A stretch of 40,102 bases of DNA from a bacterium (GCA_900299305.1 OMJJ01000382.1:1-40102); one strand, 5' to 3'; counted from the stretch's first letter, positions 3,276 to 39,456 are shown. The notes: generated from the letters alone by a model not told the origin. Made by a program: numbers and translations.

Positions 3276-4997
3276 TTGTCTGGAGTCCGTTGCTCTCGCT
3301 TGTGGAAGGCACTCATAGTTACGATTGCTGCGTTGTTGGTAGGGTGTAGCCACCCCAAGCCGAAAATGGTTGCTTCCAAGCCTAGTTGGGACGCAACTCG
3401 GTTTCGGGAGATAGGGGTCTTATCCCAAACACGGCGCACCCCTATTTTGCGCTACCAAGAGAGTACTTTGCGAGAGTGTGAGGCGCAACTCAAGCGGTTA
3501 CAGGCAGAGGGGTGGCAGTTCCTCACGCTTGCCCAACTCCAGCAACACCTTACAACGGGTAGCGAAATACCCCTCAAGTCCCTTGTCCTAACCTTCGATA
3601 CCAGTGTGCAGGGCTTTTATGGGCAGGTGTACCCGCTTCTCCAAAAACTCCACCTTCCTTCTGCGCTCTTTGTCTCTCCTCTCCTTAGCAACAAAGACAC
3701 CGATACCCTCAAGCAGATAGACAAAGAGGGGCTAGTTACCATAGGGAGTTATTGGGAGCCTATAGACCAGTTAGCCCCCGCAATGGCGAAGGGCAAAAAA
3801 GTACTTCTACAGACACTAGGACACCCCATTCTCTACTGCGCTTATGCACCTAACGAGACTTCACCAGATGCGCCCGCTACCCTAGCAAGGGCGGTAGGTT
3901 ATAAGTTGGCTTTGGCGTGCAAGGAGGGGTTGGCACAGGAATCTCCCTCTATTCTCTCTCTCAATCGTTACGGAAGTGAGCATCTCCAGCAGGCTTTGGA
4001 GGAGAGAGAAGACCGCCTGAAAACGGTTCCTTTGGCGGTTGTGGATGTACCTGCCCGTAACACACCCATCTCGGTAGAGATACGCGAGTACAAGCGGGTT
4101 AAGCTTGCTATGCTAATAGGCGGTAAAGCCTCTTTCCGCCATGATGAACACCGCCAAAGTGTAGGAGAGTTTATCAATGAGATAGGGGGGATTGCGGGGA
4201 GTAGCGGAACCTTCTTTACGGGGTCTTCTATGCGGGGAACACCGGGAGAATCGCTCGTAGGTCCTTACGTCTGTGAGGGCAAGTTCAAGCCCGATAACGG
4301 CTTCTATCCTTCGATTAGCATTAACAACCGTCCTATGGTGCTTTGGGGCGCAAATAGAGTATCTATCTTTCCCGTTCAATTAGGGGTGCTAAACCAAGAG
4401 GCGACCTACAAAACGTTTATGCCCGACTTTACCGATGGGTTTTTGGGAGGGGCTTGGATAGTACATAACGGCATAGCCCGTACCAAAGAGGAGATACCCC
4501 AAACCAGTGTCTCGGATATTCACGATCCACGATTCCGTATCTGCTTCGGACTCACAAAAGAGGGGGATACCGTTATCGCGGCGAGTATGAGCGTGGTAGA
4601 CACGGCAAAACTAGCGGAGGTGGCGGCAGGGGTAGGAATTCAGGAGGCGGTTCTGCTCGATTCGGGATTCTCTACCGCGATTATCTACCAAAACAAGGTG
4701 GTGGCTACGGGGCATACCGAGACCAAACTACCCTCGCGCCCTGTACCCAGTGCCATTGTTCTACATGGTGTTCTTGCCCCCATTCTCGACCCCAAAATGG
4801 TGGCACACCTAGAAAAAGCCCTCCCCGCTACCGGAGAAGGCTCTTTAGAGACTACGGAAGAGATTCAATGGGCTTCCAAACGTAGAAAAGCACGGCGCAA
4901 AATGCTAGAGAAGGACGAGCCTAAAAAGGATGAATCTAAAGCAGAGTCTCCTGTGAAGAGCGACGTAGTTCTTCCAAACGACCCCGAAAATCCTTGA
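3276..4997 (+). CDS. Phosphodiester glycosidase (NAGPA) family protein with N-terminal polysaccharide-deacetylase-like domain
   Basis: C-terminal NAGPA-like pattern (FFTGSSMRGTPG..., AWIVHNG, EAVLLDSGFSTAIIYQNKVV, RPVPSAIVLHG); N-terminal LTFDTSVQGFYGQVYPLLQKLHLPSALFV resembles NodB-homology proteins. Confidence 0.7.
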   Translation: MSGVRCSRLWKALIVTIAALLVGCSHPKPKMVASKPSWDATRFREIGVLSQTRRTPILRYQESTLRECEAQLKRLQAEGWQFLTLAQLQQHLTTGSEIPLKSLVLTFDTSVQGFYGQVYPLLQKLHLPSALFVSPLLSNKDTDTLKQIDKEGLVTIGSYWEPIDQLAPAMAKGKKVLLQTLGHPILYCAYAPNETSPDAPATLARAVGYKLALACKEGLAQESPSILSLNRYGSEHLQQALEEREDRLKTVPLAVVDVPARNTPISVEIREYKRVKLAMLIGGKASFRHDEHRQSVGEFINEIGGIAGSSGTFFTGSSMRGTPGESLVGPYVCEGKFKPDNGFYPSISINNRPMVLWGANRVSIFPVQLGVLNQEATYKTFMPDFTDGFLGGAWIVHNGIARTKEEIPQTSVSDIHDPRFRICFGLTKEGDTVIAASMSVVDTAKLAEVAAGVGIQEAVLLDSGFSTAIIYQNKVVATGHTETKLPSRPVPSAIVLHGVLAPILDPKMVAHLEKALPATGEGSLETTEEIQWASKRRKARRKMLEKDEPKKDESKAESPVKSDVVLPNDPENP

Positions 4998-5880
4998 GAT
5001 TCTCCACGAAAATCGCGTCGATGCTCGTCAATGTACTACGGTAGTGTGGGGCATCTTTACCACCTACCAGTATTACAACCTTATCCCCAACATATCGCCT
5101 CAAACTCACTAACTCCTGTGGCAACCTGCCGTCATCGGGTGGATGAACGATACTAAGAGCCACCACGTTCGCTTGTGTTTGGTGTACTGCCCCCGCAATC
5201 TCTGCCGCGGGTAGGTTTACCCCCAAATAGCGAATGCGCCACCCTTCAGAGGCGGCAACAACCGATACCATCAACGCCCCTAATTCGTGCATCTGCCCAA
5301 TGGGAGTAGTGATAATCAGGGTGGGCGAAGTAGCTGGTATCAAGATAGATTCGAGAACACGCCCTAAAAAAGTGCGTATCGCCGCGCTTGCCAAATGCTC
5401 ATGGGCAATCCGTAGTTGTCCCTCTTGCCAATGTGTACCTATCTCATAAAGCAGTGGGGTCAGCAGATTCTCTATCACCTCCATGCTACCCAGAGTGGCT
5501 AATGCTCTATTCAAGGTCGCTTCCAGCCCCTCTACATCCATCTGCTGTATATTTAGGAGTGCTTCGGATACATAGGTAGCACTGCTTTGCACCAAAGGCA
5601 TGGAGGGTATAGGTGACTCGTTAGGGGGAGTTGAGCTGGAGGCTTGAGAGCCTTCCAACTCTCGCAGTTTGGGTATCGCAAGGTTTGCAACCTGACCAAT
5701 ACTATAACCCGTCTGCACCAATCGTCCGAGGAGACGTAGTTTCTCCATATCTTCGGTGGAGTACAGTCTGCGATTAGTGGCAGTGCGCTCTGGTGTGAGC
5801 ACGCCATAACGCTTCTCCCAAGCACGAATGACGTGCTGAGATAGCCCTGTGCGCTTAGAAACAAATTTGATGGTGTGCAT
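4936..5880 (-). CDS. MerR-family transcriptional regulator with cobalamin-binding domain (CarH/LitR-like putative photoreceptor)
   Basis: N-terminal MerR HTH (IKFVSKRTGLSQHVIRAWEKRYGVLTPERTATNRRLYS). Middle domain WQEGQLRIAHEH fits W-x9-EH. B12 fold motif GQMHELGALM retains the lower-ligand His; followed by VVALSIVHP and VILVGGKDA. Confidence 0.88.
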   Translation of the reverse strand: MHTIKFVSKRTGLSQHVIRAWEKRYGVLTPERTATNRRLYSTEDMEKLRLLGRLVQTGYSIGQVANLAIPKLRELEGSQASSSTPPNESPIPSMPLVQSSATYVSEALLNIQQMDVEGLEATLNRALATLGSMEVIENLLTPLLYEIGTHWQEGQLRIAHEHLASAAIRTFLGRVLESILIPATSPTLIITTPIGQMHELGALMVSVVAASEGWRIRYLGVNLPAAEIAGAVHQTQANVVALSIVHPPDDGRLPQELVSLRRYVGDKVVILVGGKDAPHYRSTLTSIDAIFVENLKDFRGRLEELRRSSQETLL

Positions 5881-5902
5881 AGTTCTCCCGCTTTCTTACT
5901 AT

Positions 5903-5933
5903 ATTATGTGGTGTTTGTCCAATTTTTGTCAAT
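5903..5933 (-). promoter_or_regulatory. Promoter/operator of the CarH-like gene: two 11-bp-period repeats overlapping -35
   Basis: Minus strand: attgACAaaaattggACA (repeats at 5927-5933 and 5916-5922), TTGACA -35 at 5927-5932, 18-bp spacer, CATAAT -10 at 5903-5908. Confidence 0.7.
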
Positions 5934-6010
5934 CACAATTTAGATAAAAAGGCATAAAACCTAAGTAAGTAGCAGATTTTCTGCTTTGAAATCCAAGATC
6001 CACCTCTATT

Positions 6011-6063
6011 TTTAGACATATTTTAGACAAAATGTTGACAAACTTGTCGGAGTTAGATATACT
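6011..6063 (+). promoter_or_regulatory. Promoter/operator of the SRPBCC gene: three 11-bp-period direct repeats overlapping -35
   Basis: TTTAGACAtat TTTAGACAaaa TGTTGACAaac at 6011, 6022 and 6033 (exact 11-bp steps); TTGACA at 6035-6040, 17-bp spacer, TATACT at 6058-6063. Confidence 0.8.
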
Positions 6064-6097
6064 TAAAACATCTCACATAGTTAGAGGATAGAACGAT

Positions 6098-6652
6098 ATG
6101 CACACTGCCCTTGCTTTCGGTGCACCAGAATATACCCTTACCCGCACTCAGTGGGTCTCTGCTACGATAGAGGAGGTTTTTTCTTTTTTTGAGAACCCCC
6201 ACAACCTTTCTAAAATCACCCCGTCAAATCTTGGCTTTCATATTCTCGCTATCCATCCCGATACCGTTCAAGAAGGTACTCAAATCCTGTACCGTCTGAA
6301 GTGGCATGGTATTCCTTACCGTTGGCAAACTCTGATTGAAGAGTGGGTTTCAGAAGAAAAATTTGTAGATGTCCAGCAACGAGGTCCTTATATCCAGTGG
6401 CATCATACGCACACTTTTACGCCCTGTGAGGGAGGGGTACTGGTCGAGGACTGTGTACGGTATCGCTTACCATTCGGCAAGTTGGGTACTTTGGTACACA
6501 AACTTGTTGTACATAAAGAACTGAACGCTATTTTTGACTACCGCATGAACTGCATCGCGGAACACTTTACAAACGGGACAGTCTACTCTAACCCGCCTCA
6601 CGGGCAAAAGTACACCGCCAATACTCTTATTACAAGCCCAAACACGAGGTAA
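6098..6652 (+). CDS. SRPBCC family (START-like/cyclase-dehydrase-like) protein
   Basis: YTLTRTQWVSATIEEVFSFFENPHNLSKITPSNLGFHIL is typical of SRPBCC coenzyme Q-binding-like proteins. Confidence 0.8.
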   Translation: MHTALAFGAPEYTLTRTQWVSATIEEVFSFFENPHNLSKITPSNLGFHILAIHPDTVQEGTQILYRLKWHGIPYRWQTLIEEWVSEEKFVDVQQRGPYIQWHHTHTFTPCEGGVLVEDCVRYRLPFGKLGTLVHKLVVHKELNAIFDYRMNCIAEHFTNGTVYSNPPHGQKYTANTLITSPNTR

Positions 6653-6657
6653 ACACA

Positions 6658-7905
6658 ATGAAATCTTCTTCTTTATATCGGCTTAGCCTGCTACTCCTGC
6701 TTCTTAGCCATCCAATGCTTGCCAAGTCGGAAGACTGGGCGCAGTGGCGCGGACCAAAACGCGATGGACACCTAACGGGCTTTACTGCCCCCTCTGTATG
6801 GCCCAAAGAACTCGTGAAAGAGTGGAGCATTGATATAGGTAAAGGGCACTCTTCTCCTCTTATCGTGGGTAACGTTGCGTATGTTTTTGTACGGCGTGAC
6901 GAAAAGGAGTGGACATACTGCCTAGATATGGCGAATGGCAAAGAGGTTTGGCACGATGTGGTTGCCGCCCCTTTTGATAGTGTTATCTTTCCTGCCCAGA
7001 GGTTGGGAAAAGCCCCACGCTCTACCCCCTTGTATCACGAGGGAAAACTCTATACTATTGGGGTAAACGGCTTAATGACCTGTTTTCAGGCAAAGACCGG
7101 AAAGATTGTTTGGCGCAAAGACTTCACCAAAGCGTTTACTACGCCCATGCCGATTTGTGGTGCCGCTCTGTCGCCTCTTATAGATGGAAAGCGTCTCTAT
7201 GTGCATATTGGGCATGACGATAGGGGTGCGTTTTTGGCACTAGATAAGGATAGCGGAGACGAGATATGGCGATGGCAAGGAGAAGGACCGGGCTATACTT
7301 CTCCGATACTGGCAACTATCGGAGGAACCCGCCAACTCATTACGGCTTCGCATAATATGTGGATTAGCCTCTACCCCGAAAACGGTCAACTGCTGTGGAG
7401 TATGAAGGTACGCCAAAACTACTTTAATCACAACTCTATTACGCCCGTGATAAAAGGGGATGTGGTGTACTGCGGGGCAAATCAACGCCCTACAATGGCT
7501 CTACGTATTACCAAAAAAGGGGAGACATGGACTCCGGAAACTCTCTGGGAGACGCGAGACGTTACCATGTCTACCTCTAGCCCTGTGCTTTCGGGGAGTA
7601 CGCTCTACGCCGTAAATGAAAAGAGGCGTGGGCAGGTTGTGTGTATGGCTGTAGATAGCGGGAAAGTATTGTGGGAGTGCCCCGGAAACAAAGGCGAAAA
7701 TGTGACTCTCTACGATGCGGGTACGTCTCTACTGGCGTTTACCAGCGGGGGAGATATGTTTGTCTATACCAAAAAAGCAGAAGGGCTACAAGAGGTAGCA
7801 CGGTACGAGGTAGCAGATAGTACGGTATGGGCAAGCCCCGCCATTTCGGGAAACCGTATCTTGGTAAAAGGCGCAGAAACGCTTACCCTTTGGAAGATAC
7901 CTTAG
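6658..7905 (+). CDS. Secreted PQQ-binding-like beta-propeller protein
   Basis: Signal peptide; DWAQWRGPKRDGHLTG opening; repeated propeller blades (GLMTCFQAKTGKIVWRKDF, LALDKDSGDEIWRWQGE, VVCMAVDSGKVLWECPG). Confidence 0.85.
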   Translation: MKSSSLYRLSLLLLLLSHPMLAKSEDWAQWRGPKRDGHLTGFTAPSVWPKELVKEWSIDIGKGHSSPLIVGNVAYVFVRRDEKEWTYCLDMANGKEVWHDVVAAPFDSVIFPAQRLGKAPRSTPLYHEGKLYTIGVNGLMTCFQAKTGKIVWRKDFTKAFTTPMPICGAALSPLIDGKRLYVHIGHDDRGAFLALDKDSGDEIWRWQGEGPGYTSPILATIGGTRQLITASHNMWISLYPENGQLLWSMKVRQNYFNHNSITPVIKGDVVYCGANQRPTMALRITKKGETWTPETLWETRDVTMSTSSPVLSGSTLYAVNEKRRGQVVCMAVDSGKVLWECPGNKGENVTLYDAGTSLLAFTSGGDMFVYTKKAEGLQEVARYEVADSTVWASPAISGNRILVKGAETLTLWKIP

Positions 7906-25661: not shown

Positions 25662-27014
25662 CTAGGTGGCGTTCTCTAAAGGCACTGCAAGTAGCGTTGT
25701 TCCTCGTTGCGCTTCCACAAACTGAACGTGTTGCATAGGGGTTTCCACCAATAACTGCAAACGCCCGTTCCGAATCCATACTCCCGGATGGGTCTCTACA
25801 ACGGTAATAGTCGCCGTTACTCGCTCTTTTGTAAGCAGTACGTTGCGCCGCTTCTCTTCACGCAGTAGCCGTATACGGTCTTCCTGAACCTTCTGATGGC
25901 TCTGTATCTGTTGGATAAGGGCGCGGCGTTCATCCGTAAGGTTTCTGTGTGCGGCGGAACTGCTAAAAGGCTTGAGTGCCGACTGGATACGTAGGATATT
26001 ATAGTTACAGCCCACCATTTCCTGCTCAATCTCAATATCGCGCAGGGGAGTGTAGTGGTCGTTTCCTACTTCGAGGGTTGTCTCAATAAAGTCGGAGGTT
26101 CCCACGCTACCCGCGGTGATCTCCCTGAAAGCGCGTACCGTTCCGCCCATAATACGCGAGTAGGGGCTACCCACAACCTTCTGCCGTGTTTTTATGTCGC
26201 AGTTGATAAGGTCGCCATCTACATACACAGTACCTGCCGTTACGATAATACAGTTCTCGGCGTTTTGTAGTAGAATATCGCCTTTGGAGCGTAGGGTACA
26301 GTTTTTGACCTCACCTTGCACCGCGATAAACTCTTCGGCAACAATCTCCGCGTCCGTTATCGCATCAAAAAAGATAACACCCTGCTCAAACGTATGATAC
26401 CCCCCTACTACCTCTTCGGGGAACTGCTGAAACCCCGCAACCGTAAGCCGTTCTCCATGCAGATAGCAGTAGCCGTCCGTAGTAGCATGAACATGGAGGC
26501 TATCGGCAGAATGTGCCACGTTCTTGCCTAAAGAGAGGTAGGCGGGCTTACTAGGGCGATAGGGTACATCTCGGATAGGGAGGGTGCAGGTTTTGCCTAG
26601 TACTCCGGGTTGAGCAGGGATGGTAGAGGCTACCTCTTGCCCTTTTTTTACCAGTTGACGGGCATCTAGGGCAAACCAGTCTGTCGTTTCGGGGAAGGTG
26701 AAGTGCTTGGGAGGGTGCTGGCGAATAACCTCTTCCGAAAGGAAATAGCGTACCTTCGCATCTTGTCCGTCTTTGGGAAGAACACCTTGCGCCCCTACCA
26801 CTTCGGTAGGTAACGCCGCAGTTCGGGCTTGGCTAATCCCTGCCTGTATCTCTTCTGGGCGGGAACTATGCCCTGCGTTCATGCGGTGCAGACGCTCTAG
26901 TATCTCTTCAAAACTCGCGTCTTTGCCATCACCCTGCGGGGGGTAGATAGTGACTAGGGCTTGCGTGTGGTCGTGGTTTAAGCGGACTTCAAAGCGTCCG
27001 TTTTGGTTTGTCAT
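25662..27014 (-). CDS. DUF342/FapA-like protein, copy B
   Basis: WFALDARQLVKKGQEVASTIPAQPGVLGKTC...LHVHATTDGYCYLHGERLTV...VQGEVKNCTLRSKGDILLQNAENCIIVTAGTVYVDGDLINCDIKTRQKVV typical of FapA-like beta-helix proteins. Confidence 0.82.
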   Translation of the reverse strand: MTNQNGRFEVRLNHDHTQALVTIYPPQGDGKDASFEEILERLHRMNAGHSSRPEEIQAGISQARTAALPTEVVGAQGVLPKDGQDAKVRYFLSEEVIRQHPPKHFTFPETTDWFALDARQLVKKGQEVASTIPAQPGVLGKTCTLPIRDVPYRPSKPAYLSLGKNVAHSADSLHVHATTDGYCYLHGERLTVAGFQQFPEEVVGGYHTFEQGVIFFDAITDAEIVAEEFIAVQGEVKNCTLRSKGDILLQNAENCIIVTAGTVYVDGDLINCDIKTRQKVVGSPYSRIMGGTVRAFREITAGSVGTSDFIETTLEVGNDHYTPLRDIEIEQEMVGCNYNILRIQSALKPFSSSAAHRNLTDERRALIQQIQSHQKVQEDRIRLLREEKRRNVLLTKERVTATITVVETHPGVWIRNGRLQLLVETPMQHVQFVEAQRGTTLLAVPLENAT

Positions 27015-27060
27015 CTCTATTCGCCTTGTGACGTGATTAAGATTTTGTGGTGGGGTATTA

Positions 27061-28410
27061 CTAACTTGCTTTCGTAAGTGACACCGCATGAACCACCGTG
27101 CCGTGCATCGCCTCTACAAACCTAACCTCTTGTAAGAGAGCCGGTACGGTCAATTTAGAGCGACCATTCCGTATCTTTACTCCCGAAAAAACCTCATTTG
27201 CCTCTATGGTAGCGTTGATGTGGTTTTTGGCAAACAGGGCACATCGGTGTTGCTCCGTTTTTAGGAGGCGAATACGCTCTAGTTCTAAATGCTGGAGGGT
27301 TTGGCACTGCTCTCGCATCTGGCGGTACTGCTGTAACCCGTCTTGTAGCATGGTATTCTCTAGGGGTTTGAGGGTAGCTTGAATACGGTGTAGGTTGTGC
27401 TGGTGGGTCGCTAGTTCGCGTTCTATCTCTATAGCGCGTAAGGGAGTGTAGTAGTCGTTGCCTACCTCTACAAAGGTCTCTGTTCCTTTGGGGTCTCCTA
27501 GCCTCCCCGCAGCGACTCCACCAAAGGCGCGTAGAGTACCCCCAACCACCTGTGCCTCCTTACAACAGACGACTTTTTGGCGTGTCATAACGTCGCAGTT
27601 CTCTAATCCAACCTCTACAAAGACATCGCCGGGAGTGATGATTTTACAGTTTTCGGCACTCTCTATCAGTACATCGCCGCTTACACGTAGGGTACAGTTT
27701 TTTAGGTTTCCGCGAACCGCAAGAAACTCCTCCACGATAATCTGAGCATCGCTTGCTCCCTGATAGAGAATGGCTCCCTTGCCGAGCGCGTACTCTCCCC
27801 CCTTTATTTCGTTAGGAAACAGATGTAAGGGAATAACGGTTAGCCGCTCTTCTTTAAGGTAGAAATACCCGTCTTCAGTGGCGTAGGCGCGTACTCCATG
27901 AGGGTCTAGTACCACGTTATCCCCTATCGCACCATCGGGGGGCTTGCCGGGCATATAGGGAACGTCATGGGTGGGGAGGGTGCAGGTTTTTCCTAATACC
28001 CCTAGTTTGAGGGGGGTGATAGAGGCGAGTTCCTGCCCTTTTTTTACTATCTGAGCGGGGTCGAGGGAGAACCAGTCGGTTGCACCAGAGAGGCGCGGGT
28101 GTTTGGGAGGATAACGGCGTAACAGGTTTTTGGGAAGCGAGTGACGGATAACCGCGTCCTGACCATCCACCGGCATAACGCCTTGTGCCGCCAAAACCTC
28201 CATCGGCATAGCGACGGCACGGGCGTGTTGTATCCCGTCCCTAATCGCATCTACGCGCAGGTTATGCCCCACGCGCATCTGCCGCAAGCGGTCTACTATC
28301 TCGCCAAGAGTAACCTCTTTCCCGTCGCCATGAGGGGGGTAGATAGTGACGACTGCCTGTGTATGATTAGAGTTTAAGTGAGCGTCGAAGCGTCCGTCAA
28401 TGTCTTCCAT
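27061..28410 (-). CDS. DUF342/FapA-like protein, copy A
   Basis: Aligns end-to-end with copy B (NHTQAVVTIYPPHGDGKEVTLGEIVDRLRQM...; VRGNLKNCTLRVSGDVLIESAENCKIITPGDVFVEVGLENCDVMTRQKVV). Start could instead be GTG 28440. Confidence 0.82.
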   Translation of the reverse strand: MEDIDGRFDAHLNSNHTQAVVTIYPPHGDGKEVTLGEIVDRLRQMRVGHNLRVDAIRDGIQHARAVAMPMEVLAAQGVMPVDGQDAVIRHSLPKNLLRRYPPKHPRLSGATDWFSLDPAQIVKKGQELASITPLKLGVLGKTCTLPTHDVPYMPGKPPDGAIGDNVVLDPHGVRAYATEDGYFYLKEERLTVIPLHLFPNEIKGGEYALGKGAILYQGASDAQIIVEEFLAVRGNLKNCTLRVSGDVLIESAENCKIITPGDVFVEVGLENCDVMTRQKVVCCKEAQVVGGTLRAFGGVAAGRLGDPKGTETFVEVGNDYYTPLRAIEIERELATHQHNLHRIQATLKPLENTMLQDGLQQYRQMREQCQTLQHLELERIRLLKTEQHRCALFAKNHINATIEANEVFSGVKIRNGRSKLTVPALLQEVRFVEAMHGTVVHAVSLTKAS

Positions 28411-28511
28411 CGTTGTACCTAAGCCGTGTTCCTGATTCACACCTATTGCGGTAGTACATTATTGGGGAAACGGCTTAGAAACTAGAGAGAAAAGGGCAAA
28501 AACCCTGCCTT

Positions 28512-35074: not shown

Positions 35075-36077
35075 CTACAGGGGTTTCCCATCGGCTTCCA
35101 GATAGGGGTAGATGAACTTGTTTACCGGCTCTCCCTGTTGCGCTGGTGAGAGAACGAGGTTGCGTCCACGAGAAATAGCTACAGCGTTGTGCTCTAGTAC
35201 AAGATTACCGAACTGGTAGTCGCGCAAATCAGGGCGTTTGTGGTCTACCCAGCGAATTCCATCCGACGCATCCACAGGAATCCAGCCATAATCAGGTTGA
35301 TAGATACAGGCGTAGCAGTGATAACTGGTGATTTTCGCCTGTTCGGGGAGAGGGGAAGGCAGGGGTACACCCGCAACGCCAAAGCCGTACTCGTGGATTA
35401 CGGGGATGTTTTGCGTTCGCGCCAGCGAAATAAAGTAGCTATGCAGATCGGTGCAGTCGCCTTTTTTGTAGTCGCACACGAAATCAGAATCACCTACGCC
35501 TAATTTCGGCGACTCCGACTTATAGTCGTACTGCATACTAGAGAGGATATGCTCGTAGAGCGCACGTGCTTTATCAAGTGTCGTTGTTTTTCCTGCCGTC
35601 ACATTTGCAGAGATAGCAAGGAAACGCCCCCCCGATAGGCAGGCTTTTTTCTCCCATCAGATTCATCTTTAGAAATTTTGTGGACTCTTTTTGGGGATGG
35701 CGAGTTGCATCTCCCAATACCCGCATCTCCTTGCGGTTTACCACGTAGCGCACGGTTACGGTAAGCGGGGTTTGCGTTGCATCGAGGTGTACATAGACCA
35801 TTCGGTTCTTGTAGCGGTTCTCCTGATTGATTTTATAGTCGGGAGCACCTTCGACTACGAGGCTCTCTACTTTTTGCCATTCGCTATCAGAGGGCGCAGG
35901 AATCCACAAAGAGGCTTCTTTGGTTCCTGCGGGCAGAGCGGGGACAGTCGTTTTGCAGACAAACTCGGTGGTCATGGAGCGTGCATCCGTCTTGGGGGCG
36001 GCTTGCGCGATAAGGGCGTTCTCGCCAAACGATAAGGCGAGCGACAAGGTAATAAGGACTTTTAATGACAGGCGCAT
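35075..36077 (-). pseudogene. Secreted transglutaminase-like protein interrupted by a single frameshift (or sequencing error)
   Basis: N-terminal piece 35574..36077 (signal peptide; beta domain) and C-terminal piece 35075..35602 (GDCTDLHSYFISLARTQNIPVI...YHCYACIY...GWIPVDASDGIRW: Cys, His and Asp triad). Removing one G from a 7-G run restores PIGGRFLAISANVTAGKTTT. Confidence 0.85.
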
Positions 36078-36380
36078 GGTGTGCGAAGGTTCCTCCTAAA
36101 ATAGACGTGACAGGGAAAGCGATTGAGCATACTCGCCGCCGTTATTATAGTAACAGAACCTTAAACCTGGCTAAGATTAGTGTTAGAGTTTTTTAAGCAT
36201 AAGTCGGTGCTTTTGTCCCACCTTGCGTAAGTGGTTCAGGTGAGGGATGAGGCGTTTTGAGTACAAAGTTACAGGGTGTAATAAATTTACATAAGTTCAC
36301 TATCTTATTTGAGATGTGACACACATCGTTTTACCTCTCATAAACTACCACTATAACAACGTTTGAAGGAGGATTGTGCT

Positions 36381-38990
36381 TTGTTTTCTGCGCTTCGACG
36401 CACTGTGAATGCGTCACTCTGTTTTGCGGCTCTCCTCTGTACCTCTTCACTCACCTCTGCTCAAGTAGGGCGGGTGTGGGGGTGGGGGCAAAATCCGCAT
36501 GGAGAACTCGGCTATGGTTATTTTGGCTATACCGCATTTCCTACCCCCATTTTGAATATCAATGGCGTGCGCGATGTTCATACTATAAATGCCCATTCAC
36601 TTGCTATAGACTCGAATGGCTCTCTCTGGTCGTGGGGATATAACAGTAATGGGCAACTTGGTAACGGCAACCGAATCCCAACAGCATCTCCCAAGCAGGT
36701 AAGCGGACTGGGCTATATCGTGGCTACCTCCGCAGGTGATTCCCACTCACTAGCAGTAGATGCAGATGGGAACCTTTGGGCATGGGGCTCAAACCTCTGG
36801 GGGCAGTTAGGAACTCACACCTCTGCCTATACCCTCACCCCAACCAATGTTCCCACCCTCTACGATATTGTAGAGGCTACAGCGGGCTACCAACACTCAC
36901 TGGCTCTTCGTGTAGATGGAGCGGTATTTGCTTGGGGTAGTAATCATTTTGGAGAGTTGGGCTTGGGAACCGGGGTCTCCTCCACAGGAGACCCTGCATT
37001 AGTTTCTGGGGTAGATGGAATTGTCCAAATTTCGGCTACAGGCTCGTCTAGCCTCGCCCTGCGCTACGATGGAACCGTATGGGCTTGGGGAGATAACTCC
37101 AAAGGGCAAGCGGGGCTACCTTCTCAAAATAATAGAGTCCAGTATGCTCCCCAAAAGGTCTCTGGTATCTCTAATGTGGTTCAGGTGGCTACAGGAGGGC
37201 TACACTGCCTTGCTCTGCGCTCAAACGGAACCGTATGGGCTTGGGGGGCGAACTACTATGGTCAACTCGGCAACAACTCCCTTATAGATTCTAGCACCCC
37301 TGTTCCCGTATCAGGGCTAGGGCAAGTGATTCAAGTAGCAGTAGGAGGGGAGTACTCGCTTGCTCTCAAGGCAGATGGTACGGTATGGGTTTGGGGGGCA
37401 GACCTATCCAACCACCCCGGCACCGGTCCTTTTGGCGCAAACCTCACTCCGATACGCATCACAGGACTGAACAACATTAAGAGTATCTCTGCGGGTGCTG
37501 CGTTTGCCACCGCCATGAATGCCAACGGCTCTCTTTCGTCGTTAGGAAACAACTGGGCAGGACAGCTTGGAAATGGCGGAGCTGGCTTTCCTTATGGTGT
37601 GGTCTCTGCTTGGACATCCGACACAGTACAAGTCTGTGCGGGTAATCTCTTCTCACTTTCGCTTCAAACAGATGGAACCGTATATGCTTGGGGATCTAAT
37701 GAGCATAACGAGTTGGGTGACGGTACTACCTTTCCGCGTTCGCTTCCAACTCCCATTCCCAACCTTACCAATGTTGCTCTTATCGCCACAAAGGGATTCC
37801 ATTCGCTTGCTCTCAAGAAAGATGGAACTCTCATGGGTTGGGGTTGGAATGAGTATGGGCAAGCCAGTACCGGAGGAGGGGGAAATACACCTGTTCCGAC
37901 ACCTGTTCCCGGTTTGTCGGATGTGGTACAGGTAGCAACAGGATATGCCCACTCATTAGCCCTCAAAAAAGATGGAACCGTTTGGGCGTGGGGATTAAAT
38001 ACACATGGTGCGTTAGGAGTAGGAAATACCCTAGATAGCGGTACCCCCCAACAGGTCGTAGGCTTGTATGGAGTGGTACAGATTGTTGCCGGCTACTACC
38101 ACTCTCTTGCTCTCACCTCTGATGGAACCGTTTGGGCATGGGGCTGGAACAACTTTGGGCAACTCGGTAACGGCTCTAAGAGTGATAGCAGTCTCCCTGT
38201 TCAGATACTGGGGCTAACGGGGGTAACTCAACTCTCTGCGGGGCTTCACCACTCCCTTGCTCTGAAATTGGATGGAAGTGTTTGGGCATGGGGAAGGAAC
38301 AGCAATAACCAACTCAGTGTGGTAGGGCTAGATAGCTCCTCGGTTCCGATACAGTGCCAAAACGTGAGCGGAATCTCCCAGATTTCAGCGGGCGCACTTC
38401 ACTCTGTCGCGCTTAAAACAGACGGAAGTGTTCTATTTTGGGGGGCAGATGAGGATGGACAGTTCGGAGACGTAACCTTTGCGCGTGCCGTGGTAGTATC
38501 GCCTATTGTTGGCTTAGAAGGGCAGACCAACATCTCCGCAGGACACGCTCACACGCTTTCGGTACAGGCACCGAAACTGAACATCAGCATCAGCAATACC
38601 AATGTATCTACCCTCTACGGGAAGGGAGTGACCCTTAAAGCGACCCTCAAAAATCAGTTGGGGCTTCCCCTGTTCAACCAAACTGTAGACTTTTATATCG
38701 ACGGGCAAGCCCTTGCGACTACAGTCACTAACTTAGAGGGAGTGTGTAGTCTGGATATCCCAGATAATACAACTTACGAAGTAGGAAAACACAAAATAGT
38801 GGCTCTCTTCGATAACGGCAACGCACGTTATAATGCCTCTAGCGGTGTGGCAACCCTAACGGTTCGCAAGTCTAATACAGCAATCACCGCAGACAGTAGC
38901 AGTGGTGCCCCTGGCAACTATCTCCTTCGGAGCGTCTCTGTTGCGAACCTCCACCAACACTCCTGTGGCGGATGCGGTTCTCAACTTTAG
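36381..38990 (+). CDS. Secreted RCC1-repeat protein with Ig-like domain(s), 5' part of a frameshifted gene
   Basis: About 14 AWGxNxxGQLG-type repeats, then APKLNISISNTNVSTLYGKGVTLKATLKN Ig-like domain. TTG 36381 lies 8 nt after aaggagg, so it is preferred over TTG 36363. Confidence 0.82.
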   Translation: MFSALRRTVNASLCFAALLCTSSLTSAQVGRVWGWGQNPHGELGYGYFGYTAFPTPILNINGVRDVHTINAHSLAIDSNGSLWSWGYNSNGQLGNGNRIPTASPKQVSGLGYIVATSAGDSHSLAVDADGNLWAWGSNLWGQLGTHTSAYTLTPTNVPTLYDIVEATAGYQHSLALRVDGAVFAWGSNHFGELGLGTGVSSTGDPALVSGVDGIVQISATGSSSLALRYDGTVWAWGDNSKGQAGLPSQNNRVQYAPQKVSGISNVVQVATGGLHCLALRSNGTVWAWGANYYGQLGNNSLIDSSTPVPVSGLGQVIQVAVGGEYSLALKADGTVWVWGADLSNHPGTGPFGANLTPIRITGLNNIKSISAGAAFATAMNANGSLSSLGNNWAGQLGNGGAGFPYGVVSAWTSDTVQVCAGNLFSLSLQTDGTVYAWGSNEHNELGDGTTFPRSLPTPIPNLTNVALIATKGFHSLALKKDGTLMGWGWNEYGQASTGGGGNTPVPTPVPGLSDVVQVATGYAHSLALKKDGTVWAWGLNTHGALGVGNTLDSGTPQQVVGLYGVVQIVAGYYHSLALTSDGTVWAWGWNNFGQLGNGSKSDSSLPVQILGLTGVTQLSAGLHHSLALKLDGSVWAWGRNSNNQLSVVGLDSSSVPIQCQNVSGISQISAGALHSVALKTDGSVLFWGADEDGQFGDVTFARAVVVSPIVGLEGQTNISAGHAHTLSVQAPKLNISISNTNVSTLYGKGVTLKATLKNQLGLPLFNQTVDFYIDGQALATTVTNLEGVCSLDIPDNTTYEVGKHKIVALFDNGNARYNASSGVATLTVRKSNTAITADSSSGAPGNYLLRSVSVANLHQHSCGGCGSQL

Positions 38991-39456
38991 CGTCGATGGA
39001 GTAGTTATAGGGAGTGCTTCTACCGACAGTAACGGTAAGGCAAGCCTACCCTATACTGTGGACGAACGCTTTGGAGCCGGAAAGCATAAGCTCGTGGTAG
39101 CCTTTGCAGGAGACAAAAATCATAGTGCCACCACCAAAACGGCAACCTTCAAGGTTGTAGCCGCACAAACTCAGGTCGCTGTTACCGACGCAACTGCCTC
39201 TAGGGGGGCAACCATTAGCCTACAGGGTAGCATCGCACGGGTTACAGATGGTGCTCCGTTGGCAGGCAGAATGGTGCGCTTCCAGATAGATGGAAACACC
39301 GTCGGCTCTACTGCTACAGATGCTATGGGTATGGCGACACTCTCCTATGCCGTAAACGAAAGCCTCTCTCTTGGGTCTCACAAGATTCGAGTACTGTTTG
39401 ACGGAGAGCCTCTCTATAGCAAAAGTTCCGGTACGGGGACGCTCAAGGTGAAATAG
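38902..39456 (+). pseudogene. 3' part of the RCC1/Ig gene in a shifted frame: two further Ig-like domains
   Basis: TISFGASLLRTSTNTPVADAVLNFSVDGVVIGSASTDSNGKASLPYTVDERFGAGKHKLVVAFAGD continues the domain series; no independent RBS or signal peptide. Confidence 0.75.

Follow-up and report, generated by a model that had tools for sequence, protein, structure and literature searches.

The locus described here raises the question of what a predicted vitamin B12-dependent light switch controls when neither carotenoid nor photolyase genes lie beside it. It is situated on a stretch of 40,102 nt (OMJJ01000382.1:1-40102; hereafter the window) from the genome of an uncultured Armatimonadota bacterium (GCA_900299305.1; a draft of 4.47 Mb in 404 contigs, ~95% complete), which groups with uncultured Chthonomonas metagenome-assembled genomes (MAGs), judging by the names of its order-level relatives. 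A first-pass annotation had described a CarH/LitR-like photoreceptor that faces genes for an SRPBCC protein and a secreted propeller protein of the pyrroloquinoline quinone (PQQ)-like type, and had proposed that this output may be undescribed. The domains, residues, fold, operator, uniqueness of the operator, and homology of the cluster were computed in the present analysis. Together, they indicate that the locus probably encodes an adenosylcobalamin (AdoCbl)-dependent switch of the CarH type, whose SRPBCC-PQQ output is reduced, lineage-specific, and trimmed from a wider light-protection cluster. The locus comprises the following features:

4936..5880, minus strand: carH/litR-type regulator, 314 aa, ATG start (Pfam, PDB match, AlphaFold, Foldseek, signature conservation)
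5903..5932, minus strand: predicted carH promoter, TTGACA-N18-CATAAT (promoter scan)
6009..6041, plus strand: predicted CarH operator, three tandem 11-bp direct repeats nnnnTnnACAn (TAGACA 6013, TAGACA 6024, TTGACA 6035)
6035..6063, plus strand: predicted sigma-70 promoter of the SRPBCC-PQQ unit, TTGACA-N17-TATACT, 11/12 consensus matches (promoter scan)
6098..6652, plus strand: 184-aa SRPBCC protein (START/PYR1-like, ligand-binding), whose family recurs in linkage with carH
6658..7905, plus strand: PQQ-like (BamB-type) beta-propeller, 415 aa (Pfam PQQ_2, E 3e-31)

The strongest evidence, absent from the first-pass annotation, comes from the operator repeats: the SRPBCC promoter is overlaid by three of them and the carH promoter by two. 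Published CarH operators consist of tandem 11-bp nnnnTnnACAn repeats, three of which are present in Thermus thermophilus, where one includes the -35 box (PMC9304148). The window has the same architecture, with the third repeat (TTGACA 6035) forming the -35 box of the SRPBCC promoter. The carH promoter is overlapped by two 11-bp-spaced TnnACA repeats (TTGACA 5932-5927 and TGGACA 5921-5916; repeat scan), which makes autoregulation of carH likely. In pattern searches across the host genome, the three-repeat pattern combined with a -10 box has a single match in 4.47 Mb, namely the SRPBCC promoter; a looser pattern of two repeats plus TTGACA is also matched only there, and a reversed control has no matches. 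Among the 31 genomes of the order-level comparison set, the three-repeat pattern is present in four, each time in the region divergent from carH. Upstream of 84 carH homologues from many phyla, a TnnACA pair at 11-bp spacing occurs in 59 cases; other spacings (7-10 and 12-19 bp) occur in 1-10 of the 84 regions, and shuffled sequences have a mean of 1.3. These patterns support the prediction from sequence that CarH acts directly on the divergent SRPBCC-PQQ genes.

The identity of the regulator agrees with this arrangement. Its reading frame extends exactly over 4936-5880, and the MerR helix-turn-helix and cobalamin-binding domain (CBD) that had been ascribed to it were recovered as a MerR_1 domain (aa 3-67), a B12-binding_2 helical bundle (aa 111-173), and a B12-binding Rossmann domain (aa 188-275), all above the Pfam gathering cut-offs; AdoB12-dependent LitR likewise has both B12 domains (PMC9758184). 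The closest solved relatives in a PDB sequence search are CarH/LitR of T. thermophilus (5c8d, 5c8e, 3whp; E ~1e-30), which have the same domain order and the same Trp/Glu/His/His ligand and sensor residues; across the full-length structure match, 28% of positions are identical. The W-x9-EH motif and lower-ligand His reported earlier are both present (W151-x9-E161-H162 and H198); a phmmer alignment pairs them with W131/E141/H142/H177 of the T. thermophilus protein. The light-response signature of CarH-type proteins comprises GxxW, EH, GxxH (with the lower His), and GxxxP (PMC11796333); the regulator has all four motifs (GTHW 148-151, EH 161-162, GQMH 195-198, and GVNLP 220-224). The four ligand and sensor residues are invariant in nine order-level homologues, and in a wider set of 80 carH loci from public genomes of many phyla, Glu and both His are invariant and Trp is conserved in all but one (79/80). 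Foldseek searches with the AlphaFold model (predicted local distance difference test, pLDDT, 92.8) returned exclusively T. thermophilus CarH/LitR as best PDB matches, led by 5c8d and 5c8e, with TMt values of the CBD mostly between 0.83 and 0.87 (TM ~0.85 to the solved CBDs). The host genome also encodes a cob(I)alamin adenosyltransferase, the enzyme that makes AdoCbl. Residues, predicted fold, and putative operator support the placement of the regulator in the CarH-type family of B12 photoreceptors, and back the earlier proposal that the divergent genes are its targets.

The fold proposed for the first divergent gene product was confirmed by a profile search, which matched the N-terminal SRPBCC domain of 3oh8 (E 8e-9), and by Pfam Polyketide_cyc matches in 11 of 14 family members; the window protein on its own has no Pfam match. 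Its AlphaFold model (pLDDT 85.5) matches START/PYL/PR-10 structures in Foldseek, and the protein is predicted to have a hydrophobic-ligand fold of this type. The propeller gene follows after the reported gap of 5 nt (6653-6657), and the hydrophobic, signal-peptide-like N-terminus of its product suggests that the propeller is secreted. Its orthologues in two relatives of the same genus are 80% identical. Identification as a PQQ dehydrogenase was rejected (TIGR03075, 50.8 bits vs a cut-off of 480), with BamB-like PQQ_2 as the best whole-family fit; the propeller appears to be PQQ-like by family, which does not imply PQQ binding. The pair may shield the cell envelope or handle lipid or pigment.

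As stated in the first-pass annotation, the window lacks recognizable carotenoid or photolyase genes, both among the open reading frames (ORFs) inspected and in searches with photolyase and CrtI profiles. A carotenoid pathway was also looked for elsewhere in the genome: no CrtI homologue was found in the host genome at E<1e-20, and its only SQS_PSY (phytoene-synthase-family) genes are a tandem pair shared by almost the entire order, which we take to be the hopanoid genes HpnC/HpnD. What is unusual is a secreted PQQ-like propeller under a predicted CarH operator, in a genome that seems to lack CrtI-type carotenoid genes. The output also differs from that in T. thermophilus, where CarH regulates carotenoid synthesis (PMC10442372).

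The SRPBCC protein alone gave no match as a query for related loci, so the survey was based on aligned carH homologues. The regulator-SRPBCC-PQQ neighbourhood recurs in relatives, and two genomes of the same genus hold a fuller version. In Chthonomonas sp. MAG Umea1_bin-3024 (CAIJLM010000204; G014, loci L041/L082), which has orthologues of carH (53-54% identity), SRPBCC (59-60%), and PQQ (80%), carH faces the string fasciclin - SRPBCC_B - PQQ-b - SRPBCC_A - PQQ-a, and the promoter divergent from carH is overlaid by an operator of three repeats. The fasciclin gene, which comes first, and the following SRPBCC_B and second propeller are all missing in the window. The string is the same in the second genome (G013, L043), where a contig edge falls inside the promoter. 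In a member of the same family (G027, L042), carH is followed by a photolyase, two CrtI-type desaturases, and an aldehyde dehydrogenase, and the divergent side carries fasciclin, a short-chain dehydrogenase/reductase (SDR) of the DUF2867 type, a flavin adenine dinucleotide (FAD)-dependent amine oxidase, an extracytoplasmic function (ECF) sigma factor, and both SRPBCC genes; the whole set forms one cluster of ~15 kb (L042:2-18999). A genome of a different family (G012, L047) has carH divergent from fasciclin - PQQ. In a quick tree, the CarH of the window groups with the same-genus CarH of the fuller cluster (SH-aLRT 86). In the CarH homologues from one other genus of the comparison set (G002/G003; L051:8586-9494 and L052:8536-9444), the adenosyl-contact motif is HER rather than HEH, and their loci have neither the 11-bp operator nor fasciclin. 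These proteins sit on a long tree branch and are possibly B12- or light-independent offshoots.

The association extends far beyond the order. Among the carH loci surveyed (L082-L161 and L041-L049), fasciclin is the commonest of the neighbours scored within 8 kb of carH (24 of 80 loci in several phyla) and usually divergent; in most, CarH repeats lie upstream of carH. SRPBCC_A lies within the same distance in 14 of the 80 loci, among them representatives of Armatimonadota, Acidobacteriota, Ignavibacteriota, and Verrucomicrobiota, compared with ~0.3 loci expected by chance (our own arithmetic, assuming one copy per ~4 Mb). CrtI-type genes occur in several carH loci that also hold fasciclin or SRPBCC_A, and some SRPBCC loci adjoin photolyase, carotenoid, or SDR genes. 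In a Gemmatimonadetes MAG, a fasciclin gene is flanked by two carH homologues arranged in tandem (L098:7965-10823). The fasciclin gene RSP_1409 of Rhodobacter sphaeroides is induced under singlet-oxygen stress (PMC7074977), which supports a role of the ancestral cluster in photo-oxidative stress. The proposal of an undescribed output holds only in part: an SRPBCC gene linked to carH is widespread rather than a one-off, recurring in several phyla, and the switch itself is of a known kind, but the secreted propeller and the apparent lack of CrtI-type genes in the genome remain unusual. Limited literature searches on carH with fasciclin, and on SRPBCC with MerR, photolyase, or carotenoids, yielded no relevant paper, which is not proof of novelty; the multi-phylum pairing of carH with fasciclin, the secreted propeller as operator-proximal output, and the loss of canonical targets at the locus appear to be undescribed.

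From these features we infer that the regulator binds AdoCbl, responds to light, and represses its targets, that the cluster was trimmed rather than built up, and that the output is photoprotective or serves the envelope. In the dark, the regulator would bind AdoCbl, form a tetramer, and occupy the three 11-bp repeats over the -35 box of the SRPBCC promoter, thereby blocking the SRPBCC-PQQ-propeller transcript and, via the two-repeat site, carH itself. In the light, the Co-C bond would be cleaved and the tetramer would disassemble, switching on the SRPBCC-PQQ unit. The ancestral cluster for light or photo-oxidative stress would have consisted of carH facing fasciclin, SRPBCC proteins, and PQQ propellers, extended in one relative by photolyase, carotenoid desaturases, SDR-DUF2867, and an FAD-dependent oxidoreductase. 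In the host species, fasciclin would have been lost, so that SRPBCC_A-PQQ-a now sits directly behind the operator; a fasciclin gene hidden elsewhere was rejected, as the domain has no match in the host genome. The window as a trimmed cluster would be the simplest history, with the direction of change read from the neighbours.

Several points weigh against this interpretation. The position equivalent to His132 of T. thermophilus CarH, which makes the bis-His light adduct and whose H132A variant is unable to monomerise (PMC11796333), is occupied by Gln152. The regulator scores 134 bits on NCBIfam NF052513, the CarH equivalog with a cut-off of 400, and is therefore not called a strict CarH equivalog. 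Both findings would suit a CarH-family repressor that binds the operators but is no longer a light switch, sensing B12 availability or acting independently of B12 as do CarA of Myxococcus and class II LitR; relatives of the CarA type and LitR partnered with a light-oxygen-voltage (LOV) protein do exist. In Pseudomonas, the regulons of class II LitR (PplR/PmlR) are derepressed by light and include genes for photolyases, SDRs, and FAD-dependent oxidoreductases (PMC9758184), the kinds of genes found in G027, but in P. mendocina control of class II LitR lies with a LOV protein instead of AdoCbl photolysis, and its binding consensus is different. However, the regulator has kept all ligand and sensor residues, the GxxxP motif, and both B12 domains, and no LOV-like gene was recognised among the window ORFs read, although no systematic search for LOV genes was made. 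Moreover, the CarH-like CtMerR (PDB 8jbs/8jbt) has all four motifs and Arg, where the window regulator has Gln, at the 132-equivalent position, and still changes from tetramer to monomer in the light (PMC11796333). A His at this position is found in just 4 of the 80 homologues; its absence from the light-responsive CtMerR indicates that His132 is not defining for the wider family. The loss of the light response is considered fairly unlikely.

Other points concern the output. Propeller orthologues occur away from carH in two genomes in which carH was not found (G005 and G025), so that the propeller is not tied to carH; SRPBCC_A genes without carH are present in several genomes; and it is by association that a photoprotective function of the output is suggested. 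If the juxtaposition were due to chance, the SRPBCC-PQQ unit would be constitutive and the regulator would control only itself. This is highly improbable in view of the exact operator over the SRPBCC -35 box, the like architecture over the carH-divergent promoter in relatives, and the excess of SRPBCC_A near carH. It is unlikely, too, that a genuine CarH has its main targets elsewhere, for example the photolyase gene or carotenoid genes that escaped recognition on other contigs, with SRPBCC-PQQ as a minor target. A photolyase gene is indeed present on another contig (C22), the fragmented genome is incomplete, and exact-pattern searches miss operators with pseudo-repeats, which are known for CarH (PMC9304148). 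By contrast, both operator patterns match just the SRPBCC promoter genome-wide, no two-repeat site lies within the 5.9-kb photolyase contig, and the CrtI and SQS_PSY results offer no carotenoid target. An AdoCbl-dependent switch acting on the SRPBCC-PQQ unit remains the preferred interpretation.

Scans of the whole window detected no tRNA or Rfam element. Outside this locus, a single transglutaminase-like protein seems to have been divided by a frameshift into two ORFs that overlap in different frames (35075-36077, minus strand), through either a sequencing error or pseudogene formation, and a long RCC1-repeat protein and the following Ig-like-domain ORF (36363-39456, plus strand), which also overlap in different frames, are probably one frameshift-broken protein. 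An adjacent pair of paralogues of ~460 aa each with a FapA/DUF342-like look (25662-28440, minus strand) represents a tandem duplication.

A more specific interpretation is offered tentatively: the window may encode an AdoCbl photoreceptor with strong operators only on itself and on the SRPBCC/secreted propeller pair, whose output was freed from carotenoids and photolyase and would serve the envelope or lipid handling, within a carH-fasciclin-SRPBCC module that spans multiple phyla. The CarH code, consisting of the protein signature and the 11-bp-repeat operator, is extended to Armatimonadota and, via the 84 upstream regions, to many other phyla, so that CarH regulons become predictable from sequence. 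Fasciclin and SRPBCC proteins emerge as two understudied candidates for photoprotection that are linked to carH far above chance. The host species seems to offer a naturally reduced example: with no pigment or repair genes left at the locus, what the SRPBCC protein and the propeller do could be assessed separately from them.

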